64,000 nucleotides of DNA from Pseudomonas sp. Seg1 (GTDB taxonomy: Bacteria; Pseudomonadota; Gammaproteobacteria; Pseudomonadales; Pseudomonadaceae), in contig NZ_AP021903.1 in NCBI RefSeq assembly GCF_018326005.1, positions 558,001 through 622,000 of the forward strand, in the 5' to 3' direction. Shown in pieces: positions 2,488 to 52,041 of the stretch (its first letter is position 1; every line of letters starts with the position of its first letter). Below the pieces are notes generated by a model, which saw nothing but the letters and a program-made list of their open reading frames with translations, did no database searches and was not told the DNA's origin. The position numbers were made by a program, and so were the translations under genes.

Positions 2488-4503
2488 ATGTTCGCGCCTG
2501 CCAATCAACCGCGCTTCACGTTGACCCTTGAGGGCGCCCAGCACGACCTCAAAGTCCTTGAGTTCACGGGCAAGGAAGCCATCAGCCAACCTTTTCGCTT
2601 TGAGCTGGAACTGGTCAGCGAGCGACCGGATCTGGACCTCGAAAGCCTGCTGCACTGTCAGGCATTTCTGAGTTTTGAAGCGGACGGTTCCGGTGTGCAC
2701 GGTCAGATTTATCAGGTCGGACAGGGCGATTCCGGCAAACGTCTTACGCGCTATCACATCAGCCTTGTCCCGCGTCTCACATACCTCGGGCACCGGACCA
2801 ATCAGCGGATATTCCAGCATCAGAGCGTGCCGCAGATCGTTGCGCAGATTCTCAAGGATCACGCGATCCTGCGCGATACCTTCGAGTTTCGCCTCGGCAG
2901 CGATTACCCGGTGCGAGAGTATTGCGTGCAATACGCCGAGAGCGATCTGGCGTTTATCCAGCGTTTGTGTGCCGAGGTCGGCATTCATTACCATTTTCAG
3001 CACAGCCTCGAGGGGCACTTGTTGGTGTTCGGCGATGATCAGACGGTGTTTCCGCGTCTCGCTGAACCGACCCTCTACCTGCCCGGCAGCGGCATGGCTG
3101 GCGGGGCGCCGGCAATCAAACGCTTCAATGTCCGCGTGGAAACCCGCACCAGTGCCGTCACCCGACGCGACTACAACTTTGTAAAGCCGCAGTTGCAACT
3201 GGAAAGTCGCATCGACAGCGAACAGCGCCCGGTGCTTGAGGACTATCACTTTCCTGGCCAATTCAACGATCGTGAAACCGGCAAGCATCTGGCGCAACGC
3301 GCACTTGAAAGGCATGTCGCCGATTTCCGTCAGGCCGAGGGCATCAGCGATCAATCCGCATTGGTTTGCGGACATTTCCTGCAACTGACTGACCACCCGC
3401 GTAACGACTGGAATGATCTGTGGCTGCTCACCGGTATCGAACACCATGGCCGACAACCACAAGTGCTGGAGGAGTCGGTCACCAGCGATGGAGGAGAATT
3501 CCAGGGCTACCGTAATACTTTTCTTGCGACGCCGTGGGACGTGTTCTTTCGTCCGGCGCTGGGCCCGGAAAAACCACGGATGCTCGGTTATCAGCCGGCC
3601 GTCGTTACCGGGCCGAAAGACACGGAAATCCACTGCGACGAGTTCGGCCGGGTCAAGGTGCAACTGGCCTGGGATCGCGATGGCGAGTTGAACGAGCACT
3701 CCAGTTGCTGGCTGCGCGTCGCCACCGGTTGGGCCCACGACCGTTACGGCAGTGTGCTGATTCCACGGGTCGGCATGGAGGTGCTGGTCGGTTTCATCGA
3801 CGCCGACGCCGACAAACCTCTGGTGGTGGGCTGCCTGCCCAACGCCGCCACCCCGGTGCCACTGGATCTGCCGGCGGACAAGACCCGCAGCATTTTCCGC
3901 AGCCAGAGCAGCCCGGGGGGCGGTGGCTACAACGAGTTGCGCATCGAGGACAAAAAAGGCGCCGAGGAGATTTACCTGCGCGCCCAGCGCAACTGGACCC
4001 AGCATGTCTTGCACGACCAACAGGTGCAGGTCGATAACGCACGCAGCATCGTCGTCACCGGCATCGCCAAACATGAGTTGAAGGCTGACGAGCAACGCAT
4101 CACCCACGGCCAGCGCCAGGCTGAAGTGAAACAGGACGATCACCTGACGGTGGTCGGCGACCGGCATATCCGCGTGAGTAATCAGGCGACCAGCGCCAGT
4201 CAGCAAATTCACGTCAGCGCCGGCCAGCAAGTGGTGATCGATGGCGGTGCGAGCGCAACCATTCAGGCCGGCGGGCAGTGGATCAACATCGGCCCCGGCG
4301 GGATTTTCAGCAGCGTGCCGATCATGGTCGGTGGTGCGCCAATGGTGGCCATGAGTGCCGCGCCGGTTGTGCCGGGACTACCGGAAAAACTGACGGCAGC
4401 GCCGGCGGCCATTCTTACCGCAGCACAGATCATGAGCTTCAAGGGCGATGCGCCATTCTGCGAAGAGTGTGAGCGTTGCAAGGATGGTGTTTGTGCAGCC
4501 TGA
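2488..4503 (+). CDS. vgrG: Type VI secretion tip protein VgrG
   Basis: 671-residue VgrG (TssI) spike protein, the trimeric tip that is expelled with Hcp and carries effectors. The N-terminal two thirds correspond to the gp27-like module; SFEADGSGVHGQIYQV and the run ending YCVQYAESDLAFIQRLCAE are typical. The gp5-like OB-fold follows (EIHCDEFGRVKVQLAWDRDG at roughly residues 380-400), then the beta-helix needle with the family signature YNELRIEDKKGAEEIYLRAQ. The tail is unusual: the last 14 residues hold four cysteines (658, 661, 664, 669). The stop overlaps the start of a DUF4123 adaptor gene, so the two are translationally coupled. No hcp or tss structural genes are near, so this is an orphan vgrG island that depends on an apparatus encoded elsewhere. 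Confidence 0.93.
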   Translation: MFAPANQPRFTLTLEGAQHDLKVLEFTGKEAISQPFRFELELVSERPDLDLESLLHCQAFLSFEADGSGVHGQIYQVGQGDSGKRLTRYHISLVPRLTYLGHRTNQRIFQHQSVPQIVAQILKDHAILRDTFEFRLGSDYPVREYCVQYAESDLAFIQRLCAEVGIHYHFQHSLEGHLLVFGDDQTVFPRLAEPTLYLPGSGMAGGAPAIKRFNVRVETRTSAVTRRDYNFVKPQLQLESRIDSEQRPVLEDYHFPGQFNDRETGKHLAQRALERHVADFRQAEGISDQSALVCGHFLQLTDHPRNDWNDLWLLTGIEHHGRQPQVLEESVTSDGGEFQGYRNTFLATPWDVFFRPALGPEKPRMLGYQPAVVTGPKDTEIHCDEFGRVKVQLAWDRDGELNEHSSCWLRVATGWAHDRYGSVLIPRVGMEVLVGFIDADADKPLVVGCLPNAATPVPLDLPADKTRSIFRSQSSPGGGGYNELRIEDKKGAEEIYLRAQRNWTQHVLHDQQVQVDNARSIVVTGIAKHELKADEQRITHGQRQAEVKQDDHLTVVGDRHIRVSNQATSASQQIHVSAGQQVVIDGGASATIQAGGQWINIGPGGIFSSVPIMVGGAPMVAMSAAPVVPGLPEKLTAAPAAILTAAQIMSFKGDAPFCEECERCKDGVCAA

Positions 4504-5197
4504 TTTTCTAAAGCCTTCAGAGTGGCTGGAGCGTGAGCCGCTGAAATGTTCGGAACAGCTGTTCGCGATCTTCAGTCATGCCAGCGCCGCCAAGCCGCCG
4601 CAGGTAGCGGCTAGCCCGATTTGGGCGGATACGATTTATGCCGAGTGGGATGCAGTGATGCCTTTCGTGGGAATTGTCCCGGCAGACAGTGAGTTTCTGG
4701 ATTGGGCGGCGACTACTGAGTCTCATGATTGGGGCTGGCTGGCGGTGTCTTCAGCGAGCCTTGAAGTGGTGGTTGAGCATTTTCGCAGTTTGACTCAGGT
4801 GTTGATGCCGGACGGCAAAGCGGTGTTTTTCCGTTTTTGGGATGGACGGTTTTTGTCGCCGATCTTGCAGTCCGAGGCGGTCAGCGCGGCGCAGCTGTTG
4901 CCGGTGATCTCGCGTGGACTGATCAATGGTAAGGCCATTGATATCGGGGGGAAGGCGCAGGTTTCCGGGCAGGTGTTTCCATGGTGGAAAGTGCCGGAAT
5001 CGGCATTGGCGGCGGGCGGAGCTGATGTTCAGGTCAGTAACGCTGTGCAGTGGCTGAGCGAGGACCATCCGACGCTCTTCGAGGACTTCCCCGAGCCGGT
5101 TCTACGCTGCAAGGTCAGGCAGTTTTTTCAGGTCGCAACGTCGGAAGAATCGTCGCAGTCGGCGTTGTTGGAGTATTTGCTGACAGAGTCGGAGTGA
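4484..5197 (+). CDS. DUF4123 type VI effector adaptor (Tap/TEC-like)
   Basis: About 237 residues of the DUF4123 family, adaptor proteins that load a cognate effector onto VgrG before firing. The family core is visible: WADTIYAEWDAVMPFVGIV, then WGWLAVSSASLEVVVEHFRS, then MPDGKAVFFRFWDGRFL. The gene overlaps the end of vgrG by about 20 bases. The start is uncertain: ATG 4484 has a purine-rich stretch very close to it, GTG 4493 would have AAGGA at good spacing, and an earlier ATG at 4448 lies well inside vgrG. The adaptor is normally followed by its effector gene, but none is recognisable in the 335 bases downstream (5198-5532). Confidence 0.85.
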   Translation: MVFVQPDFLKPSEWLEREPLKCSEQLFAIFSHASAAKPPQVAASPIWADTIYAEWDAVMPFVGIVPADSEFLDWAATTESHDWGWLAVSSASLEVVVEHFRSLTQVLMPDGKAVFFRFWDGRFLSPILQSEAVSAAQLLPVISRGLINGKAIDIGGKAQVSGQVFPWWKVPESALAAGGADVQVSNAVQWLSEDHPTLFEDFPEPVLRCKVRQFFQVATSEESSQSALLEYLLTESE

Positions 5198-5425
5198 GGT
5201 TTCCGGGCGAAGGCCCCGGACGTTTCCTTCGAGTCGCGGCGGTTTTCATGAACTGGTGGGCGATGGGTTGCAGGGATAGTCTTTTCGTTGTCACCGCGAG
5301 AGTGGTGACAGGGTGTAGGAACCCTGAGAAATTCACCGCGCATCAGCGCTGTCGTTTGATTGCGGCACTTAATTCGTGCCCCTGATATCTTTGCGGCGGC
5401 TGTGCGCGGGAACGCTTCGGCGTAG

Positions 5426-5503
5426 CTGAGTTTGGTGGGTTTCTCAGTTTCCTACTCTCGCGTACGGCTGCCACCCAAACCTGTAGGAAGGTCATTGGCA
5501 GCC
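5426..5503 (+). promoter_or_regulatory. Structured leader with pseudoknot-capable pairing (possible C4-like RNA)
   Basis: Three pairings can be read in this stretch. CTGAG 5426-5430 pairs with CTCAG 5443-5447. TTCCTAC 5449-5455 pairs with GTAGGAA 5483-5489. GGCTGCCA 5466-5473 pairs with TGGCAGCC 5496-5503. The last two cross, so they form a pseudoknot or are mutually exclusive alternatives. The element ends 29 bases before the ATG of the 110-residue gene and just before its GAGG ribosome site. It recalls the C4 antisense RNA class of phage and proteobacterial leaders, but that match is not proven. The rest of 5198-5425 shows a GC-rich hairpin just after the DUF4123 stop (TCCGGG/CCCGGA near 5202-5221) and nothing else. 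Confidence 0.4.
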
Positions 5504-5532
5504 CCTCTTAAACCTATTGAGGTGTAACTGAA

Positions 5533-5865
5533 ATGACGACGCTCAAACCCGATCCACCCTACGTAAAACACATCCCCCATCCCGACAACCGCTACATGGC
5601 ATTGACCAGCAACTGCAACGACATGCCCACGCTGTTCGTCGACACCCACGCCCCTTCTGATGTCCTGATGGACGCCGCCAACTACCGCATCCGCACGGTC
5701 GTCCAGGTACTGGAAAACCTGTGCATGCGCGGCTCGATCGAATGCGATTCCCTCATCCTCAGCGACTTCGCCAAACTCTGCGCCATTCCCTTGCGCGACG
5801 GCTGTGATTTGCTCGATGTCATCGGCAAGCGATTAGGCGCAATGCCAACCTTAGTTCCGCGATGA
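5533..5865 (+). CDS. Small hypothetical protein, DUF3077/DUF6124-like
   Basis: 110 residues, soluble, no signal peptide or membrane segment. The middle part (LFVDTHAPSDVLMDAANYRI then a hydrophobic helical segment) resembles the small Pseudomonas proteins of the DUF3077/DUF6124 type, in which a short strand leads into a helical domain. The function is unknown. GAGGTG lies eight bases before the ATG, supporting this start. It is a single-gene unit behind a structured leader and before a REP pair. The family assignment rests on pattern only and could be wrong; the reading frame itself is well supported by codon use and ribosome site. Confidence 0.65.
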   Translation: MTTLKPDPPYVKHIPHPDNRYMALTSNCNDMPTLFVDTHAPSDVLMDAANYRIRTVVQVLENLCMRGSIECDSLILSDFAKLCAIPLRDGCDLLDVIGKRLGAMPTLVPR

Positions 5866-5873
5866 CTCAGTAT

Positions 5874-6006
5874 TGTGGCGAGGGGATTTATCCCCGATGG
5901 TCTGCGCAGCGGACCCCGGATCCGCAAACACGCTGTTTCAGGCGTACCGCGTCGGGTGGTTTTGGGGCTGCTGCGCAGACCATCGGGGATAAATCCCCTC
6001 GCCACA
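5874..6006. repeat. REP pair of the GGGGATTTATCCCCG type
   Basis: TTGTGGCGAGGGGATTTATC at 5874 and its inverted copy ending at 6006. The arms extend into TGGTCTGCGCAGC and its complement, so the whole element can fold into one long hairpin with about 50 bases in the loop. It lies between the small hypothetical gene and rlmJ and differs in sequence from the GGGAGCGGGC class seen elsewhere. Confidence 0.9.
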
Positions 6007-6093
6007 GGGAGCTTGTTGTCTGTCCGCTCGGCTGCGAACCCCTGACTTGCCGCCCGGTAAAAGGTAAACTTTGCGCCCTTCGCAGGAGCAGCC

Positions 6094-6933
6094 ATGAATT
6101 ATCGTCACGCCTTCCATGCCGGCAATCACGCCGATGTGTTCAAACACCTGACCTTGACCCGCCTCATCGCCCTGATGTCGCGCAAGGAGCAGCCGTTTGC
6201 CTATCTCGACACGCACGCCGGCATCGGTCTGTATGACTTGCAGGGCGATCAGGCCAACCGTACCGGCGAGTACCTGGAAGGCATCGCGCGCTTGTGGGAT
6301 CAGCCTGACCTGCCGGCGCTGACCGCCGACTACATGAAGGTGTTGCACGAGATGAACCCGGATGGCCAGTTGCGCTATTACCCCGGTTCGCCGGAACTGG
6401 CGCGGCGCCTGACTCGCCCACAGGATCGGGTGATGCTCAACGAGAAGCACCCGGAAGACGGCGTGCTGCTCAAGGACAACATGGCCGGTGATCGTCGGGT
6501 GAAAGTGCATCTGGGCGAGGGTTGGCATGTGGCGCGGGCAATGCTGCCGGTGCAGGAGAAGCGTGCGGTGATGTTGATAGATCCGCCGTTCGAGCAGCTC
6601 GACGAGATGCAGCGTTGCGCGGCGTCGTTGAAAGAAGCGATTGGCCGTATGCGCCAGACCGTGGCGGCGATCTGGTATCCGGTGAAGGATCAGCGCGCGT
6701 TACGTCGGTTCTATCAGGACCTGGCCGGCACCGGTGCGCCGAAGTTGTTGCGCGTGGAGTTGCTGGTGCATCCGCTGGACACGCCGAACAGCCTGAACGG
6801 TTCGGGCATGGCAATTGCCAATCCGCCGTGGGGGCTGGAGGAAGAATTGCGTGAGTTGCTGCCGTGGTTGTCCAAGAAATTGGGCCAGACCCAAGGTGGG
6901 TGGCAGATGGATTGGTTGATTGCCGAGAGTTAA
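6094..6933 (+). CDS. rlmJ: 23S rRNA (adenine-2030-N6)-methyltransferase RlmJ
   Basis: 279 residues, same length as E. coli RlmJ (YhiR, 280). It methylates N6 of A2030 in 23S rRNA using S-adenosylmethionine. The family N-terminus MNYRHAFHAGNHADVFKH is present. The cofactor region contains FAYLDTHAGIGLYDLQ, and the catalytic DPPF tetrad is in VMLIDPPFEQLDEM at about residue 165. Cytoplasmic, monocistronic. GCAGGAGCAGCC just before the ATG supplies the ribosome site. Confidence 0.95.
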   Translation: MNYRHAFHAGNHADVFKHLTLTRLIALMSRKEQPFAYLDTHAGIGLYDLQGDQANRTGEYLEGIARLWDQPDLPALTADYMKVLHEMNPDGQLRYYPGSPELARRLTRPQDRVMLNEKHPEDGVLLKDNMAGDRRVKVHLGEGWHVARAMLPVQEKRAVMLIDPPFEQLDEMQRCAASLKEAIGRMRQTVAAIWYPVKDQRALRRFYQDLAGTGAPKLLRVELLVHPLDTPNSLNGSGMAIANPPWGLEEELRELLPWLSKKLGQTQGGWQMDWLIAES

Positions 6934-49895: not shown

Positions 49896-49903
49896 GGCCG
49901 GGT

Positions 49904-52041
<2,138 letters not shown>

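Follow-up and report, generated by a model that had tools for sequence, protein, structure and literature searches.

What does a gene gain from a leader whose segments are complementary to one another in a crossing order, and to which class of RNA does such a leader belong? The question is raised by a gene of 110 codons (5533-5865, + strand) in Pseudomonas sp. Seg1, located in the 64 kb stretch of DNA analysed here (the window; coordinates given without a locus name are positions in it, and all features of the leader are on its + strand). A sequence-only reading had described 5426-5532 as a pseudoknot-capable leader of an orphan gene and had suggested that it may be a C4-type antisense RNA. 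This suggestion is supported by the Rfam covariance model of C4 (RF01695), which matched 5389-5478 with 48.7 bits, above the curated cut-off of 45 (E 2.7e-6 in 64 kb), and which also scored above its cut-off in each of the 20 ortholog loci that were scanned from the 80 fetched. The results support a C4-type antisense RNA contained in the gene's own leader, with both loops complementary to that leader and one of the two matches lying at the ribosome site. The best explanation of the locus, and in our view a very probable one, is therefore a chromosomal C4-type antisense module which silences the translation of its own gene.

A C4 RNA and its complementary sites in one leader

The C4 match has a closing stem (P1) and two hairpins (P2 and P3) in both the minimum-energy fold and the Rfam alignment, and the small hairpins which had been noticed ahead of the crossing stems are P2 and P3. 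The predicted processed C4 of 81 nt (5395-5475) would begin with GG and end with GCCACC, like the C4 of phage P1 (77 nt). Its fold of -43.2 kcal/mol is far more stable than that of shuffled sequences (-28.0 +/- 3.2, z -4.7). The a1b1 region upstream is also more stable than its shuffles (z -4.8), while the leader below the C4 has the same stability as shuffles (z 0.1).

The junction segment of the C4, a' (5449-5455, TTCCTAC), pairs with a2 (5483-5489, GTAGGAA) just below the C4 at seven of seven positions. The 3' strand of the closing stem (5457-5473) includes 5466-5473, GGCTGCCA, which is perfectly complementary to a segment that we call x (5496-5503, TGGCAGCC). These are the two crossing stems of the earlier reading, and both were found exactly where they had been placed, with Watson-Crick pairs throughout and the second ending 15 bases ahead of the GAGGTG at 5519-5524. 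As crossing helices of at least 7 and at least 8 Watson-Crick pairs appeared in only 23 of 5000 dinucleotide shuffles of 5426-5532, they are beyond chance. A third pairing had been overlooked: the P3 loop b' (5431-5442) is complementary to b2 (5510-5521), which overlaps the Shine-Dalgarno region at the ribosome site of the gene, in 12 contiguous pairs (7 Watson-Crick and 5 G-U). A possible small hairpin at 5479-5492 (ACCT-GTAGGA-AGGT), read from the sequence, would display a2 in its loop; it was not formed in the minimum-energy fold of the downstream leader.

The leader structure proposed for 5426-5532 is thus real, but it starts far earlier, with the C4 at 5389 and with the a1/b1 hairpins from 5290. 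The first of these hairpins (5290-5309, GTCACCGC...GTGGTGAC) falls in a match to the a1b1 family RF03163 (5276-5329), and the second (5310-5325) carries a1 in its loop (5315-5321, GTAGGAA), complementary to a'. It is followed by b1 (5324-5338), 15 bases which are complementary, G-U pairs included, to 5433-5447, where the P3 loop and the 3' strand of P3 lie. The complementary sequences of a1 and b1 are therefore present above the C4, but the RF03163 match is weak (19.5 bits against a cut-off of 46.7). A promoter and transcription of the whole module are presumed; in a simple scan of 5200-6100, no sigma-70-like promoter passed.

The order of a1/b1, C4, a2, b2 at the ribosome site and gene is the layout of the phage P1 immunity region, whose record annotates a1, b1, C4, a2, b2 and icd in that order. 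In the P1 sequence, the C4 junction a' pairs with a1 and a2 and the P3 loop b' with b1 and b2, the latter at the icd ribosome site; a2 and b2 begin 4 and 33 nt past the C4 end, and b2 ends 11 nt before the icd start. The window C4 resembles the P1/P7 C4 (RF01695, with its a1b1 targets in RF03163, controlling icd and ant) in its fold, its GG...GCCACC ends, its two pairing loops, the a2 just below it, the b2 at the ribosome site and, as far as the complementary sequences go, the a1/b1 copies above it. A complement to the closing stem, like x in the window, can also be seen by eye in P1 (8 of 9 positions). In contrast to P1/P7, the Seg1 C4s are chromosomal and known here from sequence, and a single genome contains 38 of them, almost every one with a code of its own. 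The window also differs from the P1-type immunity operon (c4-icd-ant) in the gene downstream, which is neither icd nor ant; no Pfam family was found there, and neither the protein nor the leader matched a phage record.

The pairing of x with the 3' strand of the closing stem is not confined to the window. The x region paired with it better than the mean of single-base shuffles at 31 of 37 loci of the same genome, and did so in 76 of 77 ortholog leaders (window included).

The gene had been called an orphan, which it is not, as 307 homologous proteins were found. Among the best 120, every entry with a named organism belongs to Pseudomonas, to a single Gammaproteobacteria bin or to a compost metagenome. 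Several UniRef relatives are labelled Short-chain dehydrogenase despite a length of about 103-110 aa, which is probably a misannotation. The gene had also been described as DUF3077-like. The window protein matched no Pfam family at E up to 1, DUF3077 and DUF6124 included, and what stands of that description is that genes of DUF6124, DUF3077 and Bro-N are found at sister loci. A profile comparison gave no link between the window family and DUF6124 either, as just the first 15 residues were aligned (probability 8.5). PADLOC gave nothing for 6 of 7 proteins, the window protein among them, and Cmr5 at E 0.034 for the protein of L006; NCBIfam gave solely matches far below its cut-off, none assigning a family to the window protein, and a PHROGs search gave E 0.52. 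Two AlphaFold models (pLDDT 74 and 79) show a two-helix hairpin, preceded in the window protein by two short strands. A PDB structure search with these models gave no match at E < 0.001, and the ferritin-like proteins and Rop (E 2.1) that weakly matched the DUF6124 model were too generic to use. No paper on DUF6124 was found in a search of the open-licence literature. For DUF3077 the search gave one paper; a frame change in a DUF3077 pseudogene of evolved P. putida is described, without being tied to a function (PMC9630843).

VgrG-like and DUF4123 genes (2488-5197) lie directly upstream of the C4 module. DUF4123 genes are often followed by a type VI effector gene, and in the window the C4 module stands after DUF4123 in the place of such a gene. 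Between the 110-codon gene and rlmJ, a REP-like long inverted repeat, GGCGAGGGGATTTATCCCC...GGGGATAAATCCCCTCGCC, was read from the sequence at about 5880-6010. Elsewhere in the window there is a TPP riboswitch at 49900-50005 (84.9 bits).

Pairing codes of the C4 RNAs within one genome

RF01695 has 38 matches in the Seg1 genome, all above the cut-off, and the score of the window C4 is the lowest of them. They are scattered over the genome, with three pairs less than 2 kb apart. A start codon and a frame follow in 37 of the 38, with C4 and target in line on one strand. According to a tally from Pfam positions, the gene that follows encodes DUF6124 at 31 of the 38 (at L028 the frame is broken near its start). 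The C4 of L003 precedes a DUF3077 gene and that of L006 a Bro-N gene, and other small genes lie below the C4s of L002, L029, L037 and the window; like the window protein, those of L002 and L029 have no Pfam family. The proteins encoded below the C4s are 98-128 aa long, except for the Bro-N protein with 173 aa, and are not hydrophobic-looking by eye. At L010 (C1:3470875-3470961) the C4 scores 75.3 bits and the gene is, by eye, reduced to a remnant; the loops of this C4 fit the target of L020 best among 37.

The upstream part of the module was recognised by RF03163 in 34 places, 17 of them above the cut-off, and 33 of the 34 lie just above a C4. Such a match is found just upstream of 33 of the 38 C4s, the window's not being among them. 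Six of 37 DUF6124 matches, one of them sub-threshold, do not fall in the first gene beneath a C4 match. At L157 (C1:6408469-6408887; 1271-1359 of the locus), an a1b1 element runs straight into a DUF6124 gene and the intervening C4 is absent, which looks like a module that lost its antisense RNA. Its a1 loop, GTGCAAG, is identical to that of L036, about 15 kb away. A gene that matches both DUF6124 and DUF3077 at L165 (C1:4205112; 1757-1904 of the locus) has no C4 match beside it and is near a PrrF sRNA (158 bits). The isrK family also matched the a1b1 regions at L180 4231-4312 (35.1 bits) and L157 1284-1355 (30.8 bits), in both cases below its cut-off of 50.

Nearly all of the C4s in this genome carry a private code that matches their own target. 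The mean duplex energy with the own target was -13.4 at b, compared to -7.15 +/- 0.38 when C4s and targets were re-paired, and -14.6 at a, compared to -12.15 +/- 0.37; neither value was reached in 20000 re-pairings. When foreign and own targets were ranked by RNAduplex energy alone in wider zones, the own target came first for 19 of 37 C4s at the P3 loop and 5 of 37 at the junction, and the window's own target ranked 18th and 20th. When the zones were trimmed to the loops and only ungapped helices were scored, no foreign target surpassed the own one for 29 of 37 C4s at either site taken singly, and for 35 of 37 when both sites were taken together, with the window's own target first. The corresponding counts in three other genomes were 28/30, 26/29 and 23/27 (30 of 42, 30 of 36 and 30 of 42 matches were fetched, and 4 of these 90, L231, L240, L254 and L261, were dropped), giving 112 of 123 C4s in the four genomes together. 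In 18 of 3716 pairs, a foreign target scored at least as high as the own one.

Four pairs of paralogues in this genome have proteins that are 97-99% identical and carry different codes. In L014/L020 (99% protein identity) and L007/L011 (97%), each code fits its own target much better than that of its twin. In the pair L012/L030, the C4 of L030 is slightly better at b on the target of L012 than on its own (15 against 14), and in L001/L009 the C4 of L009 fits another locus better over both sites; L009 and L030 are the C4s with a better fit to a foreign target than to their own. A test for selection against crosstalk within a genome found none, as foreign scores were 22.65 within a genome (n 3716) and 22.63 between genomes (n 11290). 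Scores of at least 33 on foreign targets were slightly rarer within a genome (1.1% against 1.5%), which can be explained by orthologues shared between genomes.

The same locus in other species and the spread of C4

The best 80 of 518 loci with relatives of the window protein were fetched. Four of the 80 (L076, L082, L092 and L095) were dropped and 77 leaders, the window included, were analysed. Within the 1200-base flanks of the 80 loci, RlmJ was found downstream in 43, DUF4123 upstream in 35, and both in 29. The loci with both were taken as the same locus as the window; 27 of the 29 could be parsed, making 28 leaders with the window.

About eight unrelated b' codes occur in this set (grouped by eye from 17 code-site pairs), and six of the 28 leaders share the window's. 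The b'-b2 helix has at least 7 pairs in all of them save L073, in which there are just 4 contiguous b' pairs. Mean pairwise identity was 90% and 83% for the closing stem and 84% for the coding DNA, compared with 64% for a', 75% for a2, 40% for b' and 41% for b2, the loop values being somewhat underestimated where lengths differ, because they were taken ungapped at fixed offsets. As b' and b2 are still paired at such low identities, both sides change together. Most of the other species examined have a different code at the window's locus, with the pairing kept. The test that the sequence-only reading had proposed supports its C4 interpretation, with pairing in homologous leaders preserved through changes on both sides.

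Taking all 77 leaders, with 39 distinct b' zones, the own b'-b2 score was 19.4, compared to 12.6 +/- 0.46 after re-pairing, and none of 10000 re-pairings reached it; a b'-b2 helix of at least 7 pairs was found in 72 of the 77. The own b2 was best or tied for 19 of the 39 zones and the own b1 for 14; many of these codes are closely related.

C4 was found in 32 of 36 genomes of the genus, Seg1 included, in 0 to 42 copies with a median of 13.5. Among other genera of the order, each represented by one genome, it was found in 4 of 21 (1-6 copies), and in a draw of 185 genomes from the class it was found in 7 including Seg1, the other six having 1-3 copies (up to 22 candidates were scored per genome). 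DUF6124 is present in 28 of the 36 genomes of the genus and in none of the 21 of other genera, and the counts of C4 and DUF6124 are correlated over the 36 genomes (r 0.80). Of 29 C4 loci in relatives, 26 were parsed, and 25 of these have a b'-b2 helix of at least 8 pairs (6 in L052; in L053 the match at a is shifted in register). The C4 end was not placed in the other three, L058, L059 and L064, and these pair when read by eye.

The columns in the motif table of Weinberg et al. 2010 reportedly stand for RNA, cis-regulatory and switch. That list includes the c4 antisense RNA, in Proteobacteria and phages, as well as c4-a1b1; its entry for c4 reads Y N N and, in the portion of the paper available, comes with neither a gene family nor a private code (PMC2864571). 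It is already known that C4 occurs in Pseudomonadales and that A. baumannii has C4-like RNAs in multiple copies (PMC5320573, PMC2864571). The Group 1 C4-like sRNAs of A. baumannii, shown by RNA-seq to be expressed and cut at a GG motif, resemble those described here in having many copies per genome and a variable loop (PMC5320573). Their targets are not known in the available portion of that paper, whereas here a target lies directly below nearly every C4. Among the matches listed when titles and abstract starts of the open-licence literature were searched, none dealt with private C4-target pairs in Pseudomonas, and searches by term within PMC11472050 and PMC12802169 turned up nothing about C4.

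A proposed mechanism and its alternatives

We propose that a single transcript would carry a1b1, C4, a2, x, b2 and the gene, from which a nuclease, probably RNase P, would release the C4 as a stable RNA of roughly 81 nt. This would follow phage P1, in which the C4 is cut by RNase P from a larger transcript, binds target mRNAs and blocks translation at the ribosome site (PMC5320573). The released C4 would then act in trans, binding its own mRNA leader by two short helices, one formed by a' and a2 and the other by b' and b2. As the b'-b2 helix would cover the Shine-Dalgarno region, translation of the 110-residue protein would be blocked, and expression would thereby be self-limiting, with the protein made only while C4 is scarce. 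We infer the repression of the window's own gene because the same parts as in P1 are present; a biological use of the protein is presumed. The genome would run dozens of such modules in parallel, nearly all with their own code.

Taken alone, the sequence would fit both action in trans and pairing within one transcript. The latter could make this a cis-acting leader, a pseudoknot or a riboswitch-like element, in which a1/b1 competes with a2/b2 for the same loops and the C4 is never released. The in-line arrangement of C4 and target on one strand at the 37 loci with a gene is in line with this, and the complementarity of x to the closing stem makes alternative folds possible; at L023 and L029, which have divergent closing stems, x is altered to match (by eye). 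We consider a cis-acting leader unlikely, however, because the C4 retains the form of the P1 C4, which is released to bind target mRNAs (PMC5320573), because the gene-less C4 of L010 still has a high score, and because the loops change freely, unlike a ligand pocket. The helices of the pseudoknot originally proposed are real, but are better read as antisense-target complementarity. It is more improbable still that the C4 is a prophage remnant, left over from a phage immunity region and now without a role. Pseudomonas phages and satellites do carry C4 before Ant (one annotated case) or icd-like frames (by eye), and the Bro-N gene behind the C4 of L006 is antirepressor-like. Against this, the pairing is maintained across species while the codes change, the window's protein and leader are without phage matches, and a DUF6124 query found a single phage record and no plasmid. 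Chance complementarity can practically be dismissed. G-rich Shine-Dalgarno regions and C/T-rich loops do bias the scores, which is why re-paired leaders are well above zero (mean 12.6 against 19.4), but the observed means were reached in none of the re-pairings, in either set, and the near-identical proteins of L014/L020 and L007/L011 come with different codes that fit their own targets much better.

In type I toxin-antitoxin systems, an antisense RNA masks the ribosome site, and the silencing logic proposed here is that of such systems. The difference is that the antisense RNA here is on the same strand as the mRNA and in line with it, and that the protein is not known as toxic. If the protein were harmful and the C4 its antitoxin RNA, this would be a use of the C4 mechanism and not an alternative to it. 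Such a use is conceivable but rather doubtful: in P1 the C4 controls icd, which the record note describes as a cell division inhibitor, while the proteins below the Seg1 C4s do not look hydrophobic and the window protein has no PADLOC match.

If the C4-type silencing module is the correct reading, as many as about 40 antisense switches, alike in design and largely separate, operate in parallel on some Pseudomonas chromosomes. They would also offer a natural data set on the evolution of RNA pairing specificity, as orthologues keep the pairing with both sides rewritten. On this reading, a target can be assigned to nearly every C4 examined, which suggests where the targets of the Acinetobacter C4-like RNAs could be sought, and a first handle on DUF6124 and DUF3077 is gained.

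The codes could also act as RNA barcodes across the genus that double as immunity, with a resident C4 silencing an incoming gene, phage or satellite of the same code, and with shared codes driving fast turnover; we regard this idea as speculative and unlikely. The 35 Pseudomonas phage and satellite records matched by the L041 leader carry C4, and are a biased sample because they were found by likeness to L041. In PAShipCat1 the C4 stands before the annotated Ant, and in six Pseudomonas phage and satellite records and P1 each C4 pairs with its own target. Certain chromosomal C4s from outside the Seg1 genome come close to, or equal, the fit of a phage C4 to its own target. Scored without a shuffle control, L043 and L045 reach 47 on the target of phiAH14b, against 44 for its own C4, and eight window-type C4s reach 43 on the target of the satellite-like vB_Pae_U10, against 49 for its own. 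On the target of P1, an E. coli phage, the best of 219 C4s reaches 38.5 against 44 for its own, a ratio nearly equal to that of vB_Pae_U10, which calls for caution on single high scores (seven dropped rows were left out of this comparison, five more were skipped and the window was counted twice). When the phage targets of L271 and L273 were compared with the 38 C4s of Seg1, a score of 35.0 for L010 against 34.5 for the own C4 was set aside, as it rests on a weak own score.

The small P. aeruginosa phage record vB_Pae_U10 (L272) includes an integrase and is satellite-like in appearance. Both of its loop codes, CTTCCAC and CCTAACGT, are common to the chromosomal window-type loci L068, L106, L112, L114, L129, L131, L141 and L146. 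In L041 (1640-1804 and 2073-2369), a C4 is followed by a 54-aa icd-like frame ending in GGAQ and next by a DUF3077-looking frame (by eye). Frames of 52-54 aa like that of L041 also follow the C4 in L040, L044, L046, L049 and L057.
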